Made by a program: the position numbers and the translations under genes. From the NCBI GenBank assembly GCA_029261065.1, contig JAJDCB010000018.1, positions 1-40,380 on the forward strand: a stretch of 40,380 bases of DNA, given 5' to 3'. The first letter of the stretch is position 1; the number at the start of each line of letters is the position of its first letter. Under the pieces are notes generated by a model. It saw nothing but the letters and a program-made list of their open reading frames with translations, was not told the DNA's origin and did not search any database. This DNA is from Candidatus Omnitrophota bacterium (GTDB taxonomy: Bacteria; Omnitrophota; Gorgyraeia; Zapsychrales; Zapsychraceae). This document shows, piece by piece, positions 8,589 through 38,348 of the stretch.

Positions 8589-8678
8589 GGAGAGGTGCCA
8601 GAGTGGTCGAATGGAGCTGACTGCTAATCAGTTGTCCTGGTAACGGGACCCAGGGTTCAAATCCCTGCCTCTCCGCCA
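8589..8678 (+). tRNA. tRNA-Ser (anticodon GCT)
   Basis: Class II tRNA with a long variable arm. Acceptor GGAGAGG pairs with CCTCTCC. The anticodon arm GCTGA-CTGCTAA-TCAGT gives GCT (reads AGC/AGU). The 3' CCA is encoded at 8676-8678, unlike tRNA-Ser(GGA) and tRNA-Arg in this window. Confidence 0.96.
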
Positions 8679-8857: not shown

Positions 8858-9541
8858 ATGAACGAACGCCTGCAGGCTTTTCAAGACTTTTTGTCTATTC
8901 AAAGCATTCAAATTCCACTTTTGGGTTTTTTGTGGGATTTGGTTTTGGCCGCTGTGTTATCAAGTGTGCTTGCACGTGTCTATGTGCGATATGGAACATC
9001 GCTCTCCAACCGAGAGATGTTGGCTAAGCAATTTGTCTTGTTGGCCATGACGACAGCGCTTGTCATAACAGTTGTGAAAAGTTCACTAGCTCTTTCCTTA
9101 GGGCTTGTTGGGGCGTTGTCGATTGTGAGGTTTCGGGCGGCGATTAAGGAGCCTGAGGAGCTCATTTATTTATTTTTAAATATTGCGATTGGTCTTGGAT
9201 TTGGGGCGAGTCAACGCCTTGTTACTACGGTGGCCTTTGGACTGATCGTCATTGTTATTATATTTCAACATAATATGCGCATAGAGCAGGCGCATAATTT
9301 GTTTTTAAATGTTTCCACTCAGAAATCTGCTTCTATTTCTCTTGAACAAATCACAGACATCGTCAAAGCATATTCTCGCCTTGTTAATTTAAGACGCTTT
9401 GATGAGCAAGAGAGGGGAATGGATGTCTCATTTTGCATCGAAATCACCGAGATGAATCAGCTCCAAATGTTAAAGAATGAAATTCTTAAAAACAGTCCCG
9501 ATGCTCACATCACATTTTTGGATAATAAAGGTATAAGTTAG
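8858..9541 (+). CDS. DUF4956 membrane protein
   Basis: A 227-residue protein with about four hydrophobic segments in the first 150 residues (around 18-38, 60-85, 95-110 and 118-138) and a soluble alpha/beta C-terminal domain. The family hallmark is visible: GALSIVRFRAAIKEPEEL followed by a glycine-rich membrane segment IAIGLGFGASQ. The function of DUF4956 proteins is not known. It is followed after 15 bases by a CotH-type protein and then a VTC-domain protein, an arrangement I recall for this family in other bacteria. No strong Shine-Dalgarno sequence precedes the ATG. Confidence 0.88.
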   Translation: MNERLQAFQDFLSIQSIQIPLLGFLWDLVLAAVLSSVLARVYVRYGTSLSNREMLAKQFVLLAMTTALVITVVKSSLALSLGLVGALSIVRFRAAIKEPEELIYLFLNIAIGLGFGASQRLVTTVAFGLIVIVIIFQHNMRIEQAHNLFLNVSTQKSASISLEQITDIVKAYSRLVNLRRFDEQERGMDVSFCIEITEMNQLQMLKNEILKNSPDAHITFLDNKGIS

Positions 9542-9556
9542 GAGTCTTTCACAAGA

Positions 9557-12121
9557 ATGATTCTTAAAGATCCTGATACACACCTCTCCGCCTCAAAAAA
9601 AGGAAGAACCTTCCTTAAACAATCAAAGCCTTATTTTTTTATTATTGCTTTATTCGTTTATTCTTTACTCTTACTGGCTGTTGGCATTTTGATCCATATG
9701 TCATATATGCCAGAGGGCAGTAACCTCCTTTATAAAGGAGCTCACTTTGAAATTACAGATCATAAATATGACGCATCTTTATCTACCCCACCTGTCATTT
9801 CATTAGGAATATCACAAACGGATTATAAGGAGTTGTTGGACAAAAGAAATCAGGCTCTAACTACGGGCGTTTTGTTAACGAGTAAGAATGATTATGTTCC
9901 TGTAAAATTGAAATATCAGGATAAAACTCTGAAAGCCAAAATACGACTGAAAGGAGATTGGAGTGAACATCTTAAAGGGAGAAAATGGTCTTTTCGTGTG
10001 AGTATGAAGGGGGATGATACGCTTCTCGGTATAAAGGAGTTTGCTTTACAACACCCAAAAACGCGTAATTATATTTATGAATGGCTTTTGCATAAAGCCT
10101 TAGCCTATGAGGGGCAGATTGCATTGCGTTACAGGTTTGTTGAACTTCTCATGAATAAGAAAAGTTTAGGCATCTATGCCCTTGAAGAACATTTTGATAA
10201 AAGGCTTATTGAACATAATCATTTTCGTGAGGGGCCCATTATTAAATTTGACGAAGATTTGATGTGGGCTCAACGCGCGAAATCTGGCGATGGGCAGGGA
10301 AAACAAACAGACTTTTATTCTAGTCGTATTGATGTCTTTCAATCAAAATCTTTAGAAGCCAAACCGCATCTTATGGTTCTTTATCAGGTTGGCTATCATT
10401 TGTTGGAGAAATTTCGGTCAGGCCAGCTTAAGGCAAGTGAGGTTTTTGACATAAGAAAAATGGCAAAAATGTATGCCTTAGGCGATGTTTTTGGTGCACA
10501 ACACATGTTTTATTTTCATAATTTACGTTTCTATGTCAATCCCATAACTTCAAAGTTAGAACCCATAGGTTTTGATGGTGATGCGGGAAGTCGTATTTCA
10601 TTTTTGATGGGTGTGCGTGCCTTTAATATGGAAAATGCGTATTACGATTTTGATAAGTTACTTTTTAATGATGATGAATTTATGGCGTTATATTTGCAAG
10701 AACTTAAATCTATGTCAGATCCTAGTTATTTGGTAGGTTTCTTTAATACCATCAAAAAGGAATTAGGCGAACAGGTTAATATATTAAATAAAGAGTTCTC
10801 TGATCTGGAATTTAGTAATGTAAACTTGGTTTTGAATCAACAATTTATCCGAAACGCGTTAATCCCTGTTAAGGGCGTGCATGCGTATGTGTCGAAGAAT
10901 AATAAAAATGAAGTAGAGTTGCGCATAGCTAACACTCAAGGCTTGCCAGTAAGTATTCATGACATTTCTCTTAATGATGTTTTGCTGTTTTCACCGACGC
11001 GACCTATTGTTATCCCTGGAAAGATTCTAAGCCAACCGTTGGATTATCAAACGTATCATTTTACGGCTAAGAAACCCCTTGATCTTAAAAAGGAACACAT
11101 TAAAAATTTAAAATTGCAAGTTAGTGTTGTAGGAACGTCATTTCCCTCGAAGGTTGAGTTGGATGCCTCCCCTAATGATGGTTTTCCCTTGATGAAAAAA
11201 GATTTACTCAAAAAGGCCTCAGAACTTAAGACGTTCAATTTTTTAAAAGTCGATGAGAAACATAAAATAATTCATATCAAGGCCGGAGAATGGGAGGTTA
11301 AAAAGGATGTCGTGATTCCTAAGGGCTATTTATTTATGGCCTCTGCTGGCGTTACGTTGGATCTAGTGAGTGGAGCAAAAATCATTTCCTATAGTCCTTT
11401 GCTTTGGAAGGGAGGGGAAGATGACTCGATAGTTGTTACTTCAAGTGATGCAACAGGTGAGGGGTTAAGTGTCATCGATGTGTCAGGAGAATCAACATTA
11501 GAACGTGTTATTTTTGAACATCTCTCTGCGCCTGATGATAATTTTTGGAAACTCACAGGTGCGGTGACTTTTTACCAAGCCGACGTGACAATGCGCGATG
11601 TCACTTTTCATAACAATGTCAAAGGCGATGATTATCTAAATGTTATTCGATCAAAGATAAATTTCTCACACCTACATTTTGCACGATCCAAAGCAGACGC
11701 GATCGATATCGACTTCTCTACAGGAGAGATGAAAAATATAACTATTATTCAATCTGGGAATGATGCTATAGATTTCTCCTCAAGCCATGTTGTTCTTCAC
11801 GATATCCGTATTCAAAAGGCTGGGGATAAGGGGATAAGTGTGGGGGAGGTTAGTGAGATTGTTGGAGAAGATATTTATATCAGTGAGTCCGCCTACGGGA
11901 TTGTATCAAAAGACTCATCGTTGTTTAAGGGTTCGCGCATTGAGTTAATAAATTGTAAAACGGGATTGAGTGCGTATCAGAAAAAATCAGAGTTTTCAGG
12001 AGCCTATATTAATGTGAGTGATGTGCTCCACAATGGCGTTTCACACGTTTATGACATTCAAGAGGGATCTTACATAACGGTTGATGGGAAGGGGATTGAA
12101 GAGGTAAAAAAGCAACTATGA
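9557..12121 (+). CDS. Membrane-anchored CotH-kinase protein with C-terminal beta-helix
   Basis: An 854-residue protein with a short cytoplasmic N-terminus, one membrane span (about 26-48) and a large extracytoplasmic part. Residues about 120-440 match the CotH kinase-like fold: RLKGDWSEH (130-138), GIYALEEHFDKRLIE (205-219) and the acidic motif LEPIGFDGDAG (334-344), which corresponds to the metal/ATP-site Asp segment. Residues about 585-840 consist of short beta-strand repeats (YIYSES-like turns, ISVGEVSEIVGEDIYISES) typical of a right-handed parallel beta-helix. CotH proteins phosphorylate secreted or coat proteins in Bacillus. The fusion with a beta-helix suggests binding of surface polymer. 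Its stop overlaps the VTC gene by 4 bases (ATGA), implying translational coupling. Confidence 0.85.
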   Translation: MILKDPDTHLSASKKGRTFLKQSKPYFFIIALFVYSLLLLAVGILIHMSYMPEGSNLLYKGAHFEITDHKYDASLSTPPVISLGISQTDYKELLDKRNQALTTGVLLTSKNDYVPVKLKYQDKTLKAKIRLKGDWSEHLKGRKWSFRVSMKGDDTLLGIKEFALQHPKTRNYIYEWLLHKALAYEGQIALRYRFVELLMNKKSLGIYALEEHFDKRLIEHNHFREGPIIKFDEDLMWAQRAKSGDGQGKQTDFYSSRIDVFQSKSLEAKPHLMVLYQVGYHLLEKFRSGQLKASEVFDIRKMAKMYALGDVFGAQHMFYFHNLRFYVNPITSKLEPIGFDGDAGSRISFLMGVRAFNMENAYYDFDKLLFNDDEFMALYLQELKSMSDPSYLVGFFNTIKKELGEQVNILNKEFSDLEFSNVNLVLNQQFIRNALIPVKGVHAYVSKNNKNEVELRIANTQGLPVSIHDISLNDVLLFSPTRPIVIPGKILSQPLDYQTYHFTAKKPLDLKKEHIKNLKLQVSVVGTSFPSKVELDASPNDGFPLMKKDLLKKASELKTFNFLKVDEKHKIIHIKAGEWEVKKDVVIPKGYLFMASAGVTLDLVSGAKIISYSPLLWKGGEDDSIVVTSSDATGEGLSVIDVSGESTLERVIFEHLSAPDDNFWKLTGAVTFYQADVTMRDVTFHNNVKGDDYLNVIRSKINFSHLHFARSKADAIDIDFSTGEMKNITIIQSGNDAIDFSSSHVVLHDIRIQKAGDKGISVGEVSEIVGEDIYISESAYGIVSKDSSLFKGSRIELINCKTGLSAYQKKSEFSGAYINVSDVLHNGVSHVYDIQEGSYITVDGKGIEEVKKQL

Positions 12122-12822
12122 TAAATTTATTAAACAATCAGGATAAACAAAAATTACGTTATGAACGTAAATTCGTATTGCCGCATACCGATTGTGATTT
12201 AGCGTTAAAAATTATTAGGTTATCTAAGGGATGTTTTAAAGAGGCTTATCCTACAAGATGTGTGAACAATATTTATTTAGATACCCTGAATAGAAAATGT
12301 TTTGAAAGTAATATCAGGGGAGATGCTTCTCGATTTAAGGTGCGGATAAGATGGTATGGCGATGATGTCGAGCAAATAAAAAATCCTGTTTTAGAAATAA
12401 AAGCAAAAGAGGGGTTAAGTGGCTATAAAATCGTTTTTCCGTTAACGGATTTTAAATTCAAGGAATGTGCTGATCAAAAGTTTTTGCCCAACCTAATTGC
12501 TTGCTGTGATATTAATGATTATATAAAAGAAGAATTAAGGGGTTATGAAGTTGCGTTGTTAAATAGATATCAGCGTCATTATCATGAATCCTTTGATCGT
12601 CATTTTCGTTTAACCTTGGATTTCGATTTAGAATATTCAGTATTGATCAAGGGTGTGAAAAAGGGGTTTCTTAGCAACAATGCGCGCAATCACGTCTTAG
12701 AACTAAAATATGCTCCTCATAACGATAGAGAAGCCAATCAAATGACCCAAAACTTCCCCTTTAGATTAGCTCGTCATTCCAAGTACGTAAATGGTATTTT
12801 AGAAACTATGATTTTAACTTAA
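12118..12822 (+). CDS. VTC-domain (polyphosphate polymerase-like) protein
   Basis: A 234-residue stand-alone VTC domain, the tunnel-fold module that makes polyphosphate in yeast Vtc4. Recognisable elements are RYERKFVL (14-21), NNIYLDT (50-56), ESNIRGDASRFKVRIRWYG (63-81) and LEIKAKEG (92-99), with basic residues pointing into the tunnel, plus LNRYQR and LELKY and the closing ARHSKYVNG. No SPX or membrane domain is attached. It is the third gene after DUF4956 and CotH and overlaps the latter by 4 bases. Activity on polyphosphate is a family-based inference; many bacterial VTC proteins are uncharacterised. Confidence 0.88.
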   Translation: MINLLNNQDKQKLRYERKFVLPHTDCDLALKIIRLSKGCFKEAYPTRCVNNIYLDTLNRKCFESNIRGDASRFKVRIRWYGDDVEQIKNPVLEIKAKEGLSGYKIVFPLTDFKFKECADQKFLPNLIACCDINDYIKEELRGYEVALLNRYQRHYHESFDRHFRLTLDFDLEYSVLIKGVKKGFLSNNARNHVLELKYAPHNDREANQMTQNFPFRLARHSKYVNGILETMILT

Positions 12823-12838
12823 AAATTATAGCTCACTT

Positions 12839-13678
12839 TTAACGTTTATAAAATTGAGGCGTTATGATGGGTTTGGATCCGATGGGAACATTAATGGTCA
12901 AATAATTGGCATGAGGACTGTCTCCCACGCCACTTGCCAGAAAATGAATATGTGCCCGATCTTCCCGATAAAATCCAAGGGTTTGTGGATGTGCTCCTAA
13001 ATCTCCAGCCACGATGTAAATCTCTTTTTGAGGAAATTGTGTTAAAAGCGGATAGAACTCATCCCAGAAATTTGATTCAAAATAGGGATCGTAAGATCCT
13101 TGGTTATGAATGAGTTGACGGTATTCTTCTCTATGTGCGGTCCATATCAGTTCATGAATAAAGATAAATACGTTATTTGCATCTTTGTATTTATTTAATG
13201 TTTTCTTCACGTAACGTTGCTGCTTAATAGGAATACGTCCACGTTTAATTTGTGTGTTTAAAATGATGAATAGATTTTTTCCATTTGTAAAATGATAATA
13301 GGTGCGTCCATATTTTTTGCGAAATATTTTTTCTCCTTCCTTGGAATTATCATGATTCCCCATCACCAGATAATACGGTTTTTGCCATTGATCGAGTTGG
13401 GATAACGTTTTTTGCCAATGATCTTCATTGGATTGACGAACCGTATCGCCTGTTAATACAAGAAAATCATAGTCATATTTTTTTTGGACGTTTAATTCTT
13501 GAAATAAAAGAGGATCCATTTCCAAATTTTCTCCTTGAGGCGAACCATAAATATGGCCAGCCACTAAAAAAGAAACGGAACTTTCATCAAGCGATGTGTT
13601 TTTATTAAGAAAAAATACAGTAGTCAAAAAAAGAGCGAGAAGAACAACAGAAATGGGAAGAAGGGGCTTAAATTTCAT
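12839..13678 (-). CDS. Membrane-anchored calcineurin-like metallophosphoesterase
   Basis: A 279-residue protein with an N-terminal signal/anchor segment (about 7-24). The start at 13678 (ATG) is preferred because it opens directly with MKFKPLLPISVVLL; an in-frame TTG at 13714 would add 12 non-hydrophobic residues. Metallophosphoesterase motifs are GDT (77-79), GNHD (107-110), His in FIHELIW (about 175) and AGDLGAH (224-230). The first motif, normally DxH, reads AGH (40-42), so one metal ligand appears replaced, and the last GHxH is also altered. It may have reduced or altered activity. The gene converges on the VTC gene with only 16 bases between stops. Confidence 0.8.
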   Translation of the reverse strand: MKFKPLLPISVVLLALFLTTVFFLNKNTSLDESSVSFLVAGHIYGSPQGENLEMDPLLFQELNVQKKYDYDFLVLTGDTVRQSNEDHWQKTLSQLDQWQKPYYLVMGNHDNSKEGEKIFRKKYGRTYYHFTNGKNLFIILNTQIKRGRIPIKQQRYVKKTLNKYKDANNVFIFIHELIWTAHREEYRQLIHNQGSYDPYFESNFWDEFYPLLTQFPQKEIYIVAGDLGAHPQTLGFYREDRAHIHFLASGVGDSPHANYLTINVPIGSKPIITPQFYKR

Positions 13679-13764
13679 TTGATTTACGTTAAAACCTTCG
13701 GGGTTTAAAGTCAAGAAATTTGAAGGAAAATTATTGTTTTTTCAATAAGTTCGATAGAGATTGA

Positions 13765-13815: not shown

Positions 13816-15540
13816 ATGCCCAATCAAAAACATTTCACACAAAGCCGTATATTATCAATAGTGTACTTATTGTTTAGTTTCTTTGCATTATGGTATGTTT
13901 TTCTCGGCCGCGAAGTTCTCACTACAATTATGACCATGATACCAGCCTTTTATATGGATATGCTGGTGCTGTCTAGCCTTGTAATAGCTTTAGTGATTCC
14001 CTCTCTATTATTAGTTCAAAACTCAAAAAAACAATCCACAACAAAAGAGGGGTCAAAATCTTCGTTGCAAACACCTATGGCTTTAATCGTTTTGTTCCTG
14101 TTTGCTCTTTTTTGTCGTTTGCCTTATTTTGTAAGCTCCGAGATTAATTGGGATGAAAGCACCTTTGCTTTAATGGGGCAAGACTTAATTGAGGGCCATC
14201 TACCCTACACACACCTATGGGATATGAAGCCGCCTTTTGTATTTTTTATTTATGCAGTTGCCATACTTATATTTGGAAAGGGAATATTGACTATTCGTCT
14301 TTTGGGATTGTTTTGTGTGTTTTTAGCTTCAGGCATTTTGTATCGAACGGTTAAAGAGTTATTTGGAGGAAAAGCGGGGTTGTGGGCAGGAATTATTTTT
14401 ATATTGACCACAAGCTTGCAGGCAGGAACCATGACAGAACATCTGACTCTGGTACCGATGAGTATCCTTTTGTTGTATTTACTTCGAAAAGAATATACCT
14501 TGGATAACGTCTGTTTTATGGGGATTATGATGGGATTGATTCTTTTGATTCGTACCAACTTAGTTTATTGCGGCATTATTGTCGCCTTTATTCTGGCTGC
14601 ACGCGAATATCGTTATGGTTTTAAAAATCTTTTTAGTATTTTATTTGTCTTTGGTCTGGGTGTCGCTTTTCTTCCTCTGTTAACGGTAATGTTTTATTCC
14701 TTGGATGGATCTCTAGATTTGCTTATTCAATCAGCGGTGACGGCCCCCTTAAAATACGTCACACTTTTATCCCAAACGTTTGAAGATAAATTTAATGTCA
14801 CCTTAGTTATGTTTAAAGAGCGTTTCTTCGTTAAAGATTTTATGATTTGGTCATTATTTGCTGGGGGTTTAACGTCAATTTTTATGGCGAATAGGTCTCC
14901 TGGTGATGCCACAAAAAAAGATGCTTTAGGTGTAGTGTTGCTGTTATTTATGGCCGCTGTCTATTCTGTTATCGTAACAGGACGCGCCCATCCTCATTAT
15001 TTTCTGCAATGGACAATATTTATGTCCGTATTTGCAGGTGTTTATCTTGCGCGTCTATCTCAATTTCGTATAAAGGGTTATTATGTGTTATGGATTGTTG
15101 TTGCTGTTATTTTACTAAAACCGACATTTATCCAATATCGCCATAGCTGGGTGAGTATTTATCAAGGACAACCCTTAAGGCAAGATACAGGACATAAGAT
15201 TTTGAAATATTTAAAAACGCAAAATATTTCTAAAGAATATATCTTTTTTTGTGAGTATCATATCGGTTATTGGTTACTTGATGTCAAAAAGCCTACTAAA
15301 TTCATACATCCTTCGAATATCTCAAGAGAACATTTAATGACGTTAGTCGATGGCCATCAGGCTACGATTCAAAATGAGATTAATGCGATTCTTAGAAAGA
15401 AACCCCTTTTTATTATCAAATCAGATCGGCCTTGGTATTTTGATGAGTATCAAAATCAGAGGGTGAACTTTGAGGTTGAGCACAATTATGTGCTAGTTAA
15501 GAGGGTGGATCATATAGGTATTTATAGGCGGAAGATGTAA
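13816..15540 (+). CDS. GT-C glycosyltransferase (PMT/ArnT-like, GT39/GT83 type)
   Basis: A 574-residue integral membrane protein with about 11-12 hydrophobic segments. The first periplasmic loop carries NWDES (111-115) and HLWDMKPP (133-140), the acidic and D-K-P-P motifs of lipid-phosphate-sugar dependent GT-C enzymes; the C-terminal 130 residues are soluble. Such enzymes transfer sugars from polyprenyl-phosphate donors to lipid or protein on the outer face of the inner membrane. The GT2-GtrA protein two genes downstream could make or flip such a donor. Acceptor unknown. The start lacks a clear ribosome-binding site. Confidence 0.82.
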   Translation: MPNQKHFTQSRILSIVYLLFSFFALWYVFLGREVLTTIMTMIPAFYMDMLVLSSLVIALVIPSLLLVQNSKKQSTTKEGSKSSLQTPMALIVLFLFALFCRLPYFVSSEINWDESTFALMGQDLIEGHLPYTHLWDMKPPFVFFIYAVAILIFGKGILTIRLLGLFCVFLASGILYRTVKELFGGKAGLWAGIIFILTTSLQAGTMTEHLTLVPMSILLLYLLRKEYTLDNVCFMGIMMGLILLIRTNLVYCGIIVAFILAAREYRYGFKNLFSILFVFGLGVAFLPLLTVMFYSLDGSLDLLIQSAVTAPLKYVTLLSQTFEDKFNVTLVMFKERFFVKDFMIWSLFAGGLTSIFMANRSPGDATKKDALGVVLLLFMAAVYSVIVTGRAHPHYFLQWTIFMSVFAGVYLARLSQFRIKGYYVLWIVVAVILLKPTFIQYRHSWVSIYQGQPLRQDTGHKILKYLKTQNISKEYIFFCEYHIGYWLLDVKKPTKFIHPSNISREHLMTLVDGHQATIQNEINAILRKKPLFIIKSDRPWYFDEYQNQRVNFEVEHNYVLVKRVDHIGIYRRKM

Positions 15541-15564
15541 TATAAGTGTTATCCCTATCCTATA

Positions 15565-15648
15565 TGTCATTCCCGAGAAAACGGGAATCTATTAGGGGCT
15601 AGGCGCAGTTTTACTTTTATTATTACTTGATCCCCGCGAAAGCGGGGA
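15565..15648. repeat. Pair of GTCAT-type hairpin repeats
   Basis: A hairpin at 15565-15590 (TGTCATTCCCGAGAAAACGG...) and a second at 15631-15648 (TCCCCGCGAAAGCGGGGA, a perfect 7-bp stem with a GAAA-type loop). They fill the 137-bp gap between the GT-C glycosyltransferase and the methyltransferase and could act as a terminator for the former. Confidence 0.8.
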
Positions 15649-15677
15649 CCCGTGCGATCTGAGAAAAATATTTTTGT

Positions 15678-16409
15678 ATGAGCAAATCAACAAACGAACC
15701 TAGCCCTTTTGATTATGAATCCTTACAGCCAGGCTATTACGACACCGTCTATTCAAAGCTAAAGGGGGCCCAAAGCAAGTGGCATCATCTTAAATTTGAA
15801 TATGTCTCTCATCGTATGGGAGAGTTTAGAGATCATTTAGATATAGGATGTGGACCAGGTACGTTTATTGGGCATTATTGCAAGGGAAGAAAAAGTATTG
15901 GCGTTGATGTCTCAAGCGAGCAAATTCAATTCGCGCAGAAAAAATACATCACAGATGATCATTCTTTTTTTCATTTGAATGAAACCCAAACGTTACCTTT
16001 TGATGATGCGCATTTTGATTGCATCACCATTATTGAATTAATTGAACACCTAGAAGATGAGATGTTAAAGAAATTGTTTAATGAGATTAAACGTGTTCTT
16101 CGCCCTGGGGGCAGGCTTGTTTTGACAACACCTAATTACGCTAGCCTTTGGCCGATTTTGGAGGCTTGTGTTAATCGTAGCACGCCTGTTTCTTATAAAG
16201 AACAGCATGTGACACATTTTACAAAGACAAAATTACAGCAGTTATTGGAAAACCAAAACTTCAATAACATTTGGATAACCGCCTTTCAAGGAATGGCTCC
16301 TTTTGTTGCGCCATTGCATTGGTCTTTGGCGAGTCATTTAGCGGTGTTTGAAAATAAGACCTGGGGCTCTTTATGGGGGCATTTGTTATTTGCTGTGGCT
16401 GAAAAATGA
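15678..16409 (+). CDS. Class I SAM-dependent methyltransferase
   Basis: A 243-residue methyltransferase (Methyltransf_11/23 type). The SAM-binding motif DIGCGPG is at residues 55-61, the acidic end of strand 2 follows in SIGVDVSSEQ, motif IV region is FDCITIIELIEHLEDE, and LRPGGRLVLTTPNY is the post-motif strand. The C-terminal third has a hydrophobic stretch that may contact membrane. Its position between glycosyltransferases, with a 4-base overlap to the next gene (16406-16409), suggests modification of a lipid-linked or surface sugar, but the substrate cannot be read. Confidence 0.85.
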   Translation: MSKSTNEPSPFDYESLQPGYYDTVYSKLKGAQSKWHHLKFEYVSHRMGEFRDHLDIGCGPGTFIGHYCKGRKSIGVDVSSEQIQFAQKKYITDDHSFFHLNETQTLPFDDAHFDCITIIELIEHLEDEMLKKLFNEIKRVLRPGGRLVLTTPNYASLWPILEACVNRSTPVSYKEQHVTHFTKTKLQQLLENQNFNNIWITAFQGMAPFVAPLHWSLASHLAVFENKTWGSLWGHLLFAVAEK

Positions 16410-17491
16410 ATATAGAACTAAGCATCATTATTCCTACATACAATGAAAAAGATAACATTCGTCCTTTGTGTGATTCGCTTGAAAAGGCGTTGCAAGGAAT
16501 TATTTATGAGATCATTTTTGTAGATGATGATTCAAGCGATCAGACAGCAGACATTATCAAAGAAATTTCACAAAACAATAATCAGATTCGTTGTCTTCAT
16601 CGCATTGGTAAACGAGGTTTGGCCTCAGCGTGTATTGAGGGGGTCATGGCAAGTGCGGCTCCTTATGTCGCTGTGATGGATGCTGATTTGCAACATGATG
16701 AAACGTTATTGATGAAGATGTTGAGTACCATAAAAGAAGAGAAGCTTGATCTTGTTGTGGCCAGTCGTTACGTTGAAGGGGGCGATACCGAAGATTGGTC
16801 CAAGAAACGCGAGTGGATCAGTTTAGTGGCCACGCGATTAGGACAGATGTTTATGCGTGTTGATATTAAAGATCCTTTAAGTGGTTTTTTTCTTATTAAG
16901 CGCGCGTCATTTATAGAAGTTGTGCATCACTTATCAGCAAAGGGTTACAAAATCTTATTAGACATTCTGATGTCATCCAAACGTATTTTAACCTTTAAAG
17001 AATTACCGTATCATTTTCGGAATCGCCATGCTGGGGAAAGCAAGCTGGATGGTTTAGTAGCCTGGGAATATTTTTTGCTTATCGCTGATAAAGCCTTAGG
17101 GCGTTATTTTCCTGTGAGATTTATTTTATTTGTCATTGTCGGTTTATTCGGTGCTTTTTTTCATCTAGGCACATTATCCTTTTGTTTTCATTATCTTCAG
17201 ATGCCATTTGTCCAAGCGCAGGCGATTGCAATTATCTTAGCTATTAATTTTAATTTTCTTTTAAATAACGAGTTTACTTACCAAGACTTAAAGCTACGTG
17301 GAGCTCATTTTTTACGTGGGTTGCTATCCTTTTTTGTAGCTTGTAGTCTAGGCGCCGTTATTAACATGATTATTGCCCTTTATCTGTATCAATCTGGAAT
17401 TGAGTGGTGGATTTCAGGATTGTTAGGGGCTGTTATTGGATCTGTGTGGAATTATGCGATTACGAAAACATTTACGTGGATGAAGGTCTAG
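16406..17491 (+). CDS. Dolichol-phosphate-mannose-synthase-like GT2 fused to GtrA domain
   Basis: A 361-residue two-domain protein. The GT2 domain (1 to about 230) has SIIIPTYNE at the start, FVDDDSSDQT (38-47), the DAD metal motif (92-94) with QHD (96-98) and the acceptor segment DPLSGFF. The C-terminal GtrA domain (about 238-361) has four hydrophobic segments, with FxLNNEFTY and NYAITKTFTW typical of GtrA. DPM-like proteins make polyprenyl-phosphate sugars and GtrA is thought to help flip them. This gives the likely donor for the GT-C enzyme upstream. It is translationally coupled to the methyltransferase (ATGA overlap). Confidence 0.9.
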   Translation: MNIELSIIIPTYNEKDNIRPLCDSLEKALQGIIYEIIFVDDDSSDQTADIIKEISQNNNQIRCLHRIGKRGLASACIEGVMASAAPYVAVMDADLQHDETLLMKMLSTIKEEKLDLVVASRYVEGGDTEDWSKKREWISLVATRLGQMFMRVDIKDPLSGFFLIKRASFIEVVHHLSAKGYKILLDILMSSKRILTFKELPYHFRNRHAGESKLDGLVAWEYFLLIADKALGRYFPVRFILFVIVGLFGAFFHLGTLSFCFHYLQMPFVQAQAIAIILAINFNFLLNNEFTYQDLKLRGAHFLRGLLSFFVACSLGAVINMIIALYLYQSGIEWWISGLLGAVIGSVWNYAITKTFTWMKV

Positions 17492-35495: not shown

Positions 35496-35855
35496 ATGAA
35501 GATGCAAATAACTCCAATTAAAACAAAAAAAGATTATGAACAAGCTCTAGAGGCCATTGACAAACTTTGGGATGCTAAGCCGAATACTAAGGAAGGGGAT
35601 ATGTTGGATGTTCTTGCTACATTAGTTGAAGCCTATGAACAAACACATTATCCAATTTTTCCTCCTGACCCAGTTGAAGCTATAATGTTTCGTATGGATC
35701 AATTGGGATTGAAAAAGGGCGACTTAGCTAAATTTTTTGGTGGGGCTAATAGAGTTTCTGAAGTTCTTCATAGAAAACGGAAATTAACGTTAAAGATGAT
35801 CAAAACTTTGCATGATCAATTGAAAATTCCTTATGAGTCTCTTATAACCGTTTGA
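35496..35855 (+). CDS. higA: HigA-family antitoxin (Xre-type DNA-binding)
   Basis: A 119-residue antitoxin. ATG 35496 is preferred, with AGGAGG at 35483-35488; a GTG at 35493 would add one residue. The N-terminal part (TKKDYEQALEAIDKLWDAKPNTKEGDMLDVLATLVEAYE) matches HigA antitoxins that neutralise HigB, and the C-terminal helix-turn-helix (about 67-118) has GLKKGDLAKFFGGANRVSEVLHRKRKLT. It should bind the TTCCCA palindrome upstream of higB. Confidence 0.93.
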   Translation: MKMQITPIKTKKDYEQALEAIDKLWDAKPNTKEGDMLDVLATLVEAYEQTHYPIFPPDPVEAIMFRMDQLGLKKGDLAKFFGGANRVSEVLHRKRKLTLKMIKTLHDQLKIPYESLITV

Positions 35856-35873
35856 GTATAAAATGAAAGAATA

Positions 35874-35947
35874 GGTGACAGTCACCAAAAGGGGACAGGC
35901 ATTGAAGAGTTGTAATGATAAGTGTCCCCCTGAGGGTGACTGTCACC
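35874..35947. repeat. Repeat family B, copy 2
   Basis: Near-identical to copy 1 at 34930-35004, in the same orientation about 0.94 kb apart. It lies 18 bases after the higA stop. Confidence 0.92.
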
Positions 35948-36136
35948 TTTTTTTCAACACCATGGATTAAAAAAAGTGATGATATTGATGATAAAAATTA
36001 CGTTCGTGACACGGCTAATCGTTCGATGAAAATTGTTCCCAGAACTAACGCTGGAACTGATGATGAAGGAAATGCTGAATATTTATTTAAATTAGAAAGA
36101 TTGGACATTAAACCAACCTTTAAAGCGAATCAATAA
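35948..36136 (+). pseudogene. 3' remnant of an unidentified gene
   Basis: Immediately after repeat B the frame stays open for about 62 codons (TPWIKKSDDIDDKNYV, later MKIVPRTNAGTDDEGNAEY, ending FKANQ). It has plausible protein composition but no start signal of its own; the only upstream start is inside the repeat. Its last 17 bases overlap the convergent isocitrate dehydrogenase. It looks like the tail of a gene whose front was lost at the repeat. Family unknown. Confidence 0.4.
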
Positions 36137-38348
36137 TATCATTAAAAGTGTTGCTTGGACGCATGGCTTTTTCAGTCAGTTCAGGGTTTGGTTGAAAATA
36201 TCCACCAATATCTGCAGGGCACCCTTGTGCGGCTAATAGTTCCTCATTGATTTTATCTTCATTTTCTTCCAATGTTTTCGCAATAGGAGCAAATCTCTCT
36301 TTCAATGATTTGTCTGTATCCTGCTTGGCCAGGGTCTGAGCCCAATAAAGTGCTAAATAGAAAGTGCTACCCCTATTGTCGATTTCATGTACCTTTCGGG
36401 ATGGATTTCGACCATATTCAAGGTACTTTCCAATGGCAAGATCAAGCGTATTTGCAAAAACAGATGCTTTTGTATTCTTTGTCTGTTGGGCAAAAAGTTC
36501 CAAAGAAGGGACAAGAGCGCAGTATTCACCGAGAGAGTCCCAACGGATATGCTGCTCTTTTAAAAATTGTTGAACATGCTTTGGAGCTGAACCTCCAGCG
36601 CCGGTCTCAAAGAGACCACCACCATTTAAAAGTGGAACAATGGAGAGCATACGGGCGCTCGTACCTAATTCCAAAATAGGAAAGAGATCGGTTAAATAAT
36701 CCCGCAGGACATTACCTGTTGCACTGATCGTGTCTTTACCTTCTCGAATTCTTTTTAATGAAAAATTCATGGCATCAACCGGCTTCATAATATGTATGTC
36801 TAAATCTTGTGTATTTAACTCAGCCAAAGCAGGTTCCACTTTTTTAATGAGTTCGTAATCATGAGCTCTTGCTTTATCGAGCCAGAAAACGACGGGTGTG
36901 TTTGTTGCCTTTGCTCTCCTAACAGCTAGACCAACCCAATCTATAATAGGAAGGTCCTTGGTCTGACAAGCTCTAAAGATGTCTCCTTTTTCAACGGGTT
37001 GTTCTAATAGTACTGTACTGGCTGTATTAACAATTTGAATGGTACCCTTGTCCGGAGCTTCAAAGGTTTTATCATGCGAACCATACTCTTCAGCCTTTTT
37101 AGCCATTAAACCAACATTAGATACACTGCCCATAGTAGCAGGATCAAATTGTCCATTTTTTTGTGCATCTTCCAGTATGGCCTGATACATGGTTGCGTAA
37201 CAACGATCCGGAATCATGGCAATGGTGTCTTGCAATTCATCATCATTATTCCACATCTTACCACCATCCCGGATGATATTTGGCATAGAGGCATCAATAA
37301 TAATATTATTCGGTACGTGGAGGTTTGTAATTCCGTTTCGGGAATCGACCATGGCCAATGAGGCTTGCTTTTTGTACACAGCTTTAATGTCGGCCTCTAT
37401 GGCAGCTTTTTTATCTTCTGGAAGCTGGTTTAACCTATCAAGAACATCTGCAAATCCATTATTCAAATTTACGCCAATTGCTTTCATCTCATCTGTATAT
37501 TTTTCCAATACATCTTTGTAGTAAACAGAAACACAGTGACCAAAAATGATAGGATCTGAGACTTTCATCATGGTTGCTTTTAAATGGAGGGAGAGCAGGA
37601 CATTTTCTTTTTCGGCTTTTTTGATCTGCTCAGCATAAAACGTTCGAAGGGATGCAACATTCATGACAGAACAATCGATGACCTCACAAGCTTCCACGGC
37701 AAATTTTTCTTTTAAAGTATGAGTACTACCATTCTCTGCTTTAAACTCGATTTTTAATTCGTCAGATTGACTCATGGTTGTTGATTTTTCACTGGAGAAA
37801 AAATCGTTGTCTTGCATATGAGCCACTTGAGTTTTCGAACCAGCTGTTGGCCAGGGTTTCATCATTTTGTGTGGGTTTGTCCGAGCATTTGCCTTTACCG
37901 ATACAGCGGCCCGTCGGTCAGAGTTTCCTTCCCTTAGTACAGGGTTTACGGCCGAACCCAGCACAACTGCAAATCGAGCCTGTAATGCTTTTTCTTCTTC
38001 ATTTTTAGGATCCTCAGGGTAATCTGGAATTGAATAACCTTTTTCTTGTAATTCTTTAATGGCTGTCTGGAGTTGTGGAATTGATGCGCTGATATTAGGA
38101 AGCTTAATGATATTTGCTTCTGGAGTTTTTGCTAACTCACCAAGCTGAGTCAGACAATCTGGAATTTTTTGGTCTTCCGTTAGTTTTTCTGAAAAGTTTG
38201 CAATAATCCGACCAGTCAACGAAATGTCACTGATGTCTATTTCTATACCGGTTCCCTTTGTATATGCCTTTACAATAGGGAGAAGTGAGTAAGAGGCTAA
38301 AGCTGGCGCTTCATCGATTTTTGTCCAAGTTATTTTTACATTTTTCAC
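36120..38348 (-). CDS. icd: Monomeric NADP-dependent isocitrate dehydrogenase
   Basis: A 742-residue monomeric IDH, which oxidises isocitrate to 2-oxoglutarate with NADP+. The start is GTG at 38348: AAGGAAGG lies 6-7 bases upstream and the protein then begins [20 protein letters not shown], in register with Azotobacter-type IDH (741 residues). A longer TTG start would extend into an inverted repeat. Conserved stretches include [31 protein letters not shown] (substrate binding), [35 protein letters not shown] and [15 protein letters not shown]. The gene is alone on the minus strand, with no other TCA gene nearby. Possibly acquired; see findings. Confidence 0.97.

Follow-up and report, generated by a model that had tools for sequence, protein, structure and literature searches.

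A recurrent DUF4956–CotH–VTC gene cassette in Omnitrophota: a possible envelope polyphosphate module

The locus described here raises the question of why a DUF4956 membrane protein, a CotH-fold protein and a VTC domain should be encoded side by side, and whether their products act together at the cell surface. The window, a 40,380-nt stretch of contig JAJDCB010000018.1 from a Candidatus Omnitrophota genome (assembly GCA_029261065.1), carries the three genes with a 15-bp gap between the DUF4956 and CotH genes and a 4-bp overlap between the CotH and VTC genes in the ORF list (Table 1). A sequence-only reading had proposed that the products make, attach and trim a phosphate-containing polymer, and the gene families, positions and spacing that it gave for 8858–13678 agreed with the ORFs and with Pfam. 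The DUF4956, CotH, VTC and Metallophos matches all exceeded their Pfam cut-offs (VTC, 72.7 bits against a cut-off of 23); Beta_helix scored 25.6 bits, slightly below its cut-off of 25.9, but both the AlphaFold model and Foldseek bore it out. The first ATG of the phosphoesterase frame, at 13678, yields a hydrophobic N-terminus.

Table 1. Features of the cassette and its convergent neighbour (positions in the window)
Feature	Position	Strand	Size and evidence
DUF4956 membrane protein	8858..9541	+	227 aa; five predicted TM helices and C-terminal ferredoxin/ACT-like domain; PF16316, 52.9 bits
CotH-fold protein, membrane-anchored, with C-terminal right-handed beta-helix	9557..12121	+	854 aa; PF08757, 35.5 bits
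N-terminal signal-anchor helix of CotH protein, residues 23–49	9623..9703	+	AlphaFold model helix and N-terminal sequence
CotH kinase-fold domain, residues 129–387	9941..10717	+	Asp251 equivalent, D340; His316 beside Asp228 position
Right-handed beta-helix of CotH protein, residues 563–838	11243..12070	+	AlphaFold model, Foldseek
Stand-alone VTC polyphosphate polymerase domain	12118..12822	+	234 aa; PF09359, 72.7 bits
Exported calcineurin-like metallophosphoesterase, convergent	12839..13678 (ORF 12839-13714)	-	PF00149, 35.7 bits

A tRNA-Ser(GCT) gene (8589–8678) precedes the cassette by 180 bp. A recent island at this tRNA was considered and rejected; GC level was not shifted over the cassette, and the window, in which the tRNA 3' end was not duplicated, thus gave no sign of an integrated island. 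Beyond the module, Pfam identified PMT_2-type glycosyltransferase, methyltransferase and GT2/GtrA genes at 13816–17491, which is a surface-glycan setting. More than half of the matches in a sigma-70 promoter scan were expected by chance. Elsewhere in the window, ORF 920–1801 had no Pfam match and overlapped tRNA-Ser(GGA) at 1081–1171, and is therefore probably spurious.

Each of the three families had exactly two matches in the source genome (2.71 Mb, 95 % complete), and all six fell in two complete cassettes of identical order, the second being located at 350,695–354,671 of contig 23. This second cassette was surrounded by nucleotide-sugar, aminotransferase and methyltransferase genes, as judged from their translations, and was directly preceded by a gene for an exported CYTH protein with a C-terminal TM helix (L007:16794-17699). 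CYTH enzymes include triphosphatases. The CYTH protein was rejected as a general partner of the module, since it was found at the second cassette only.

The module was rare in the phylum (12 of 384 genomes). Among these 384 genomes, however, all 13 DUF4956 genes above threshold had a VTC gene no more than a few kb away, and a Pfam CotH gene was nearby for 11 of the 13. At L067, which lacked a Pfam CotH match, the intervening protein was a divergent CotH/beta-helix protein; at L062 the CotH gene was absent and a 1025-aa PPDK_N/PEP-utiliser protein followed VTC (L062:11285-14362). Hypergeometric co-occurrence over the 384 genomes gave p values of ~1e-19 for DUF4956–VTC and ~4e-15 for DUF4956–CotH, which overstate the significance because the genomes are not independent. 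Two giant open frames, 33,383 and 37,904 aa long, from genomes of the same order also contained VTC domains (L009/L012, G025:C5 near 35675-36394; L070, G275:C42 near 146102-146785), the one in G025 being surrounded by TPR repeats and a glycosyltransferase domain of starch-synthase-like type. PPK1 was absent from all 12 module genomes of this phylum. The idea that VTC simply substitutes for PPK1 fits these genomes, but was rejected in view of the presence of PPK1 in nine of 16 others.

The DUF4956 profile, run against GTDB representatives, revealed at least 582 relatives, of which the best 80 were read; these were drawn from at least 10 phyla and included 42 loci with a flank of at least 4.5 kb on each side. 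VTC was present at 40 of these 42 well-flanked loci, CotH at 37 and both at 35, nearly always on the same strand. Within the best 80, and with phyla taken from the record titles, triplets came from Bacteroidota, Calditrichota, Alphaproteobacteria (including Pelagibacteraceae), Margulisbacteria, Planctomycetota, Chloroflexota, Verrucomicrobiota, deltaproteobacteria, Nitrospinota and Acidobacteriota, and gene order varied (D-C-V, D-V-C and C-D-V, by family initial). The recurrent neighbourhood on which the sequence-only reading had made its proposal depend is therefore strongly present both in the phylum and beyond it. In 14 named control genomes, genome-wide matches to VTC and DUF4956 picked out the same three (Bacteroides ihuae, Corynebacterium glutamicum and Methanosarcina acetivorans), two of which, C. 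glutamicum among them, also matched CotH. Taking the second cassette, the co-occurrence within the phylum and the cross-phylum loci together, the DUF4956–CotH–VTC linkage is not due to chance.

Pairwise distances over 51 loci were correlated for DUF4956–VTC (r=0.84), DUF4956–CotH (0.62) and VTC–CotH (0.55), with permutations reaching at most 0.29; such correlated divergence can also result from vertical descent. Patchy spread and scattered tree positions suggest horizontal transfer of the module, although many branches of the trees were unsupported. No natural fusion joining any two of the three proteins, which would have pointed to contact between them, was found among the loci examined. The complete module was also seen in streamlined genomes of ~1 Mb belonging to Pelagibacteraceae (SAR11; L118, L126, L133, L143, L144 and L148), and an exported pyrophosphatase gene adjoined it in two of these six loci.

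Clustering of the neighbouring genes irrespective of family gave the window's phosphoesterase family as the largest cluster (20 loci; 23 of 93 when a profile was used). As the commonest extra neighbour, this family belongs to the module, as had been proposed; its members lay inside or within ~100 bp of the gene cluster at 15 of the 23 loci, and nearly all had a hydrophobic N-terminus and a GNHD motif. Inorganic pyrophosphatases carrying a secretion or lipoprotein signal and an intact GGDGDxxD motif occurred at seven loci, six of them within 2.6 kb, compared with ~0.6 loci expected under the rough assumption of one to two such genes per genome. A Pfam scan of 116 proteins, confined to near neighbours and including a few chosen by hand, ranked Metallophos first, followed by glycosyltransferase 2 and a sorting domain. 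Exported phosphohydrolases are thus recurrent, but at a minority of loci, and their several kinds lend support to the proposed trimming. MBOAT/AlgI genes were present at six loci and an AlgX-like gene at L094, with glycosyltransferases also nearby; together with a beta-helix that resembles glycan-active enzymes (see below), these genes point to a surface-glycan setting.

In Gram-positive bacteria, genes of the same three families have been described as accessories that lie downstream of pel operons (PMC7112168), represented in S. intermedius by SIR_1592 (DUF4956/MgtC-like), SIR_1593 (polyphosphate polymerase) and SIR_1594 (CotH-FN3) (PMC7112168, PMC12345266). Deletion of the DUF4956 homologue raised Pel, deletion of the CotH homologue lowered it and aggregation was affected, whilst no effect of deleting the VTC homologue on aggregation or Pel was reported (PMC12345266). 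The same 2025 paper failed to find synteny of the trio outside the Pel locus (PMC12345266), which is contradicted by its wide occurrence outside Pel loci. PelG was detected in none of the 28 module genomes tested, the source genome included, and dependence of the trio on Pel was ruled out on these grounds. We infer that the trio serves as a general envelope module and was recruited by Pel loci, rather than the reverse.

The VTC sequence from the window found no PDB relative by itself, but a 12-member VTC profile matched yeast Vtc4 (3g3q, E=2.4e-18). Nine Vtc4 residues were checked: K200, R264, R266, K281, K294, R361, R373, E426 and K458 correspond to K18, R76, R78, K95, K104, R153, R164, E195 and K222 in the window, and all are identical there and near-invariant in 80 homologues. 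To inactivate the yeast complex, R264, R266 and E426 were the positions altered (PMC9911596). The basic tunnel residues, on which the sequence-only reading had staked its case, were thus retained at every position checked, so that its proposal that the locus makes a phosphate polymer is well supported at the level of conserved residues, and the protein probably polymerises phosphate from ATP. It has no hydrophobic segment by hydropathy and is predicted to be cytosolic.

The DUF4956 protein was modelled by AlphaFold with a pLDDT of 90, as five TM helices followed by a ferredoxin-like C-terminal domain. Five TM helices and a C-terminal ACT-like domain are also the layout of MgtC, and this layout is present in the model. 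MgtC was weakly matched by 37 of 84 DUF4956 homologues (best 3.7e-5, below the Pfam cut-off), and the window protein itself gave no match to MgtC at E 0.1. Searches by sequence matched no solved structure; Foldseek matched the ferredoxin-like part alone and no known channel, the C-terminal part aligning with the MgtC C-terminal domain 2lqj at a TM score of 0.59 by target, among many ferredoxin-like matches. From profile and model, DUF4956 looks like a distant relative of MgtC, and its Streptococcus homologue has been published as MgtC-like (PMC12345266). The earlier statement that DUF4956 has no known role calls for revision, given this likeness and the changes in Pel level and aggregation that follow its deletion in S. 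intermedius (PMC12345266).

The residues R91, R93 and K97 were invariant in 94 DUF4956 homologues, and the family has the invariant motif GALSIVRFRxxIKEPEE. Several Anaerolineae members are longer, at ~450–530 aa (L091, L093, L098, L109 and L110), and those examined carry a signal peptide and a LamG-like (3keto-disac_hyd) domain fused N-terminally, before the first helix. An exported N-terminal domain followed by five helices would place the N-terminus of DUF4956 outside and its C-terminal domain inside, with which the distribution of charge in the loops is in line. This topology would put R91, R93 and K97 on the cytosolic side of the membrane, at the point of entry for a chain released by VTC. 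The channel of yeast VTC is lined by basic TM1 residues, which are required for vacuolar polyphosphate (PMC9911596); the comparison with DUF4956 is by analogy, the folds being unrelated.

The likeness to MgtC is also the starting point for a regulatory explanation, in which DUF4956 senses or sets cytosolic phosphate or ATP through its ACT-like domain, VTC polyphosphate stays in the cytosol, no polymer is exported, and exopolysaccharide output is tuned by the CotH protein, acting on envelope proteins as a kinase or a scaffold. Salmonella MgtC is reported to act on PhoR and phosphate uptake (PMC6658541), phosphorylation-based regulation has been proposed for Pel loci (PMC7112168), and the rise and fall of Pel in the two S. 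intermedius deletions would fit (PMC12345266). Pel is absent, however, from all 28 module genomes tested, and the exported pyrophosphatases and phosphoesterases would have no evident purpose if there were no phosphate bonds outside the cell. This explanation is considered unlikely, although it is the strongest of the alternatives.

The CotH fold was identified by Pfam, by a profile match to B. cereus CotH (5jd9, E=6e-24) and by Foldseek. The AlphaFold model of the CotH/beta-helix protein (pLDDT 85) matched Bacillus cereus CotH (5jda and 5jd9; TM 0.67 for 5jda, normalised by target) in its N-terminal half, and GH87 alpha-1,3-glucanases, an alginate lyase and AlgG in its C-terminal half. A Lys/Arg-rich stretch precedes the signal-anchor helix, and the N-terminus is predicted to lie inside and the remainder outside the membrane. 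Among 84 sequences, the equivalent of the Mg-binding Asp251 is D in 60 and E in 9, whilst E211 is kept in 80. The Asp228 position is Met317 in the window and mostly G/A/S in homologues in a sequence alignment where loop length varies; the adjoining His316 is conserved in 54 of 84. Since D228Q inactivates B. subtilis CotH (PMC7821199), the lack of Asp at this position in the subfamily makes phosphotransfer by the module's CotH domain doubtful and leaves the attachment step of the sequence-only reading unsupported. The beta-helix carries two Asp/Asn columns in successive turns (D692/D714/D736/D757 and N695/D717/D739), 85–90 % conserved. A canonical CotH without a beta-helix also occurs in the cluster in Anaerolineae, and the L066 cassette, from the window's phylum, lacks the beta-helix.

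These features would suit a structural explanation, in which the CotH domain, as a pseudokinase, leaves the work to the Asp-ladder beta-helix, which binds polyanions (polyphosphate or an acidic glycan) through divalent cations so that a surface coat is built or anchored. The missing Asp228 with its conserved neighbouring His, the conservation of the beta-helix Asp/Lys positions (79–90 %, generally above CotH-domain positions) and the fold similarity to AlgG, alginate lyase and GH87 all speak for it, whereas retention of the Asp251 equivalent and E211 in most sequences, and the Anaerolineae and L066 clusters without a beta-helix, speak against it, and it ranks below the regulatory explanation in likelihood. 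That the genes are unrelated neighbours, their adjacency inherited or accidental, is scarcely credible for an arrangement found twice in one genome and in several gene orders across at least 10 phyla, and nothing turned up in favour of this view.

The reading preferred here is that the cassette is an envelope polyphosphate module. Cytosolic VTC would polymerise phosphate from ATP; MgtC-like DUF4956 would dock the polymerase and take up the chain, doing the job of the Vtc1/3/4 TM helices in yeast; polyphosphate itself, or the energy or phosphate that it supplies, would reach the outer face of the membrane; the anchored CotH-fold/beta-helix protein would transfer phosphate to surface polymers or hold polyphosphate on them; and exported phosphohydrolases, which are the metallophosphoesterase at this locus and pyrophosphatase or CYTH at others, would trim the product and recover phosphate. 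The partnership of VTC and DUF4956, for which gene linkage and correlated divergence argue, is likely. Passage of polyphosphate, or of its energy or phosphate, to the outer face is slightly favoured; action of the CotH/beta-helix protein on surface polymers is suggested only tentatively, and exported phosphohydrolases may perform the trimming. Confidence is limited by the S. intermedius VTC deletion, which has no reported phenotype, and by the loss of Asp228, and the five-step account as a whole stands a little short of an even chance. A more specific version, in which VTC polyphosphate passing through DUF4956 donates the phosphoryl groups with which a CotH-fold phosphotransferase outside the cytoplasm decorates surface glycans or proteins, is improbable, and more so than either the regulatory or the structural explanation; if true, it would be a polyphosphate-powered secretory kinase system, an answer to the lack of ATP outside the cell, in many phyla including SAR11.

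If the preferred reading is right, DUF4956 gains a role as the membrane partner of bacterial VTC, the trio is no longer a Pel-specific accessory, and the small VTC/DUF4956 pair would be a widespread bacterial counterpart of the yeast machine that synthesizes and translocates polyphosphate. With members of SAR11, Bacteroidota, Chloroflexota, Planctomycetota and other groups carrying the set, surface phosphate polymers may have been overlooked in many bacteria.

The present module is a broader version of a gene set that was already known. It shares with the Gram-positive Pel accessory set the same three families in contiguous order, but is not next to a pel operon, has a beta-helix where the Pel accessory CotH has FN3, and comes with an attached phosphoesterase and, in this genome, in two cassettes. 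The Bacillus spore-coat kinase CotH (5jd9/5jda) has the same fold and Mg-site Asp251 equivalent, from which the window protein departs in the residue at the Asp228 position, in signal-anchor export and in its fusion to a beta-helix. DUF4956 resembles the MgtC family in its weak sequence match (37 of 84), five TM helices and C-terminal ACT-like domain, and differs in having its own motif and in being linked to VTC in nearly every locus. With the yeast VTC complex (Vtc1/Vtc3/Vtc4) the module has in common the catalytic tunnel residues and, as we infer, a cytosolic polymerase tied to a membrane partner; in contrast to yeast, VTC here has neither an SPX domain nor TM helices, the membrane partner appears MgtC-like, with no relation to the Vtc TM domain, and a CotH protein is added.
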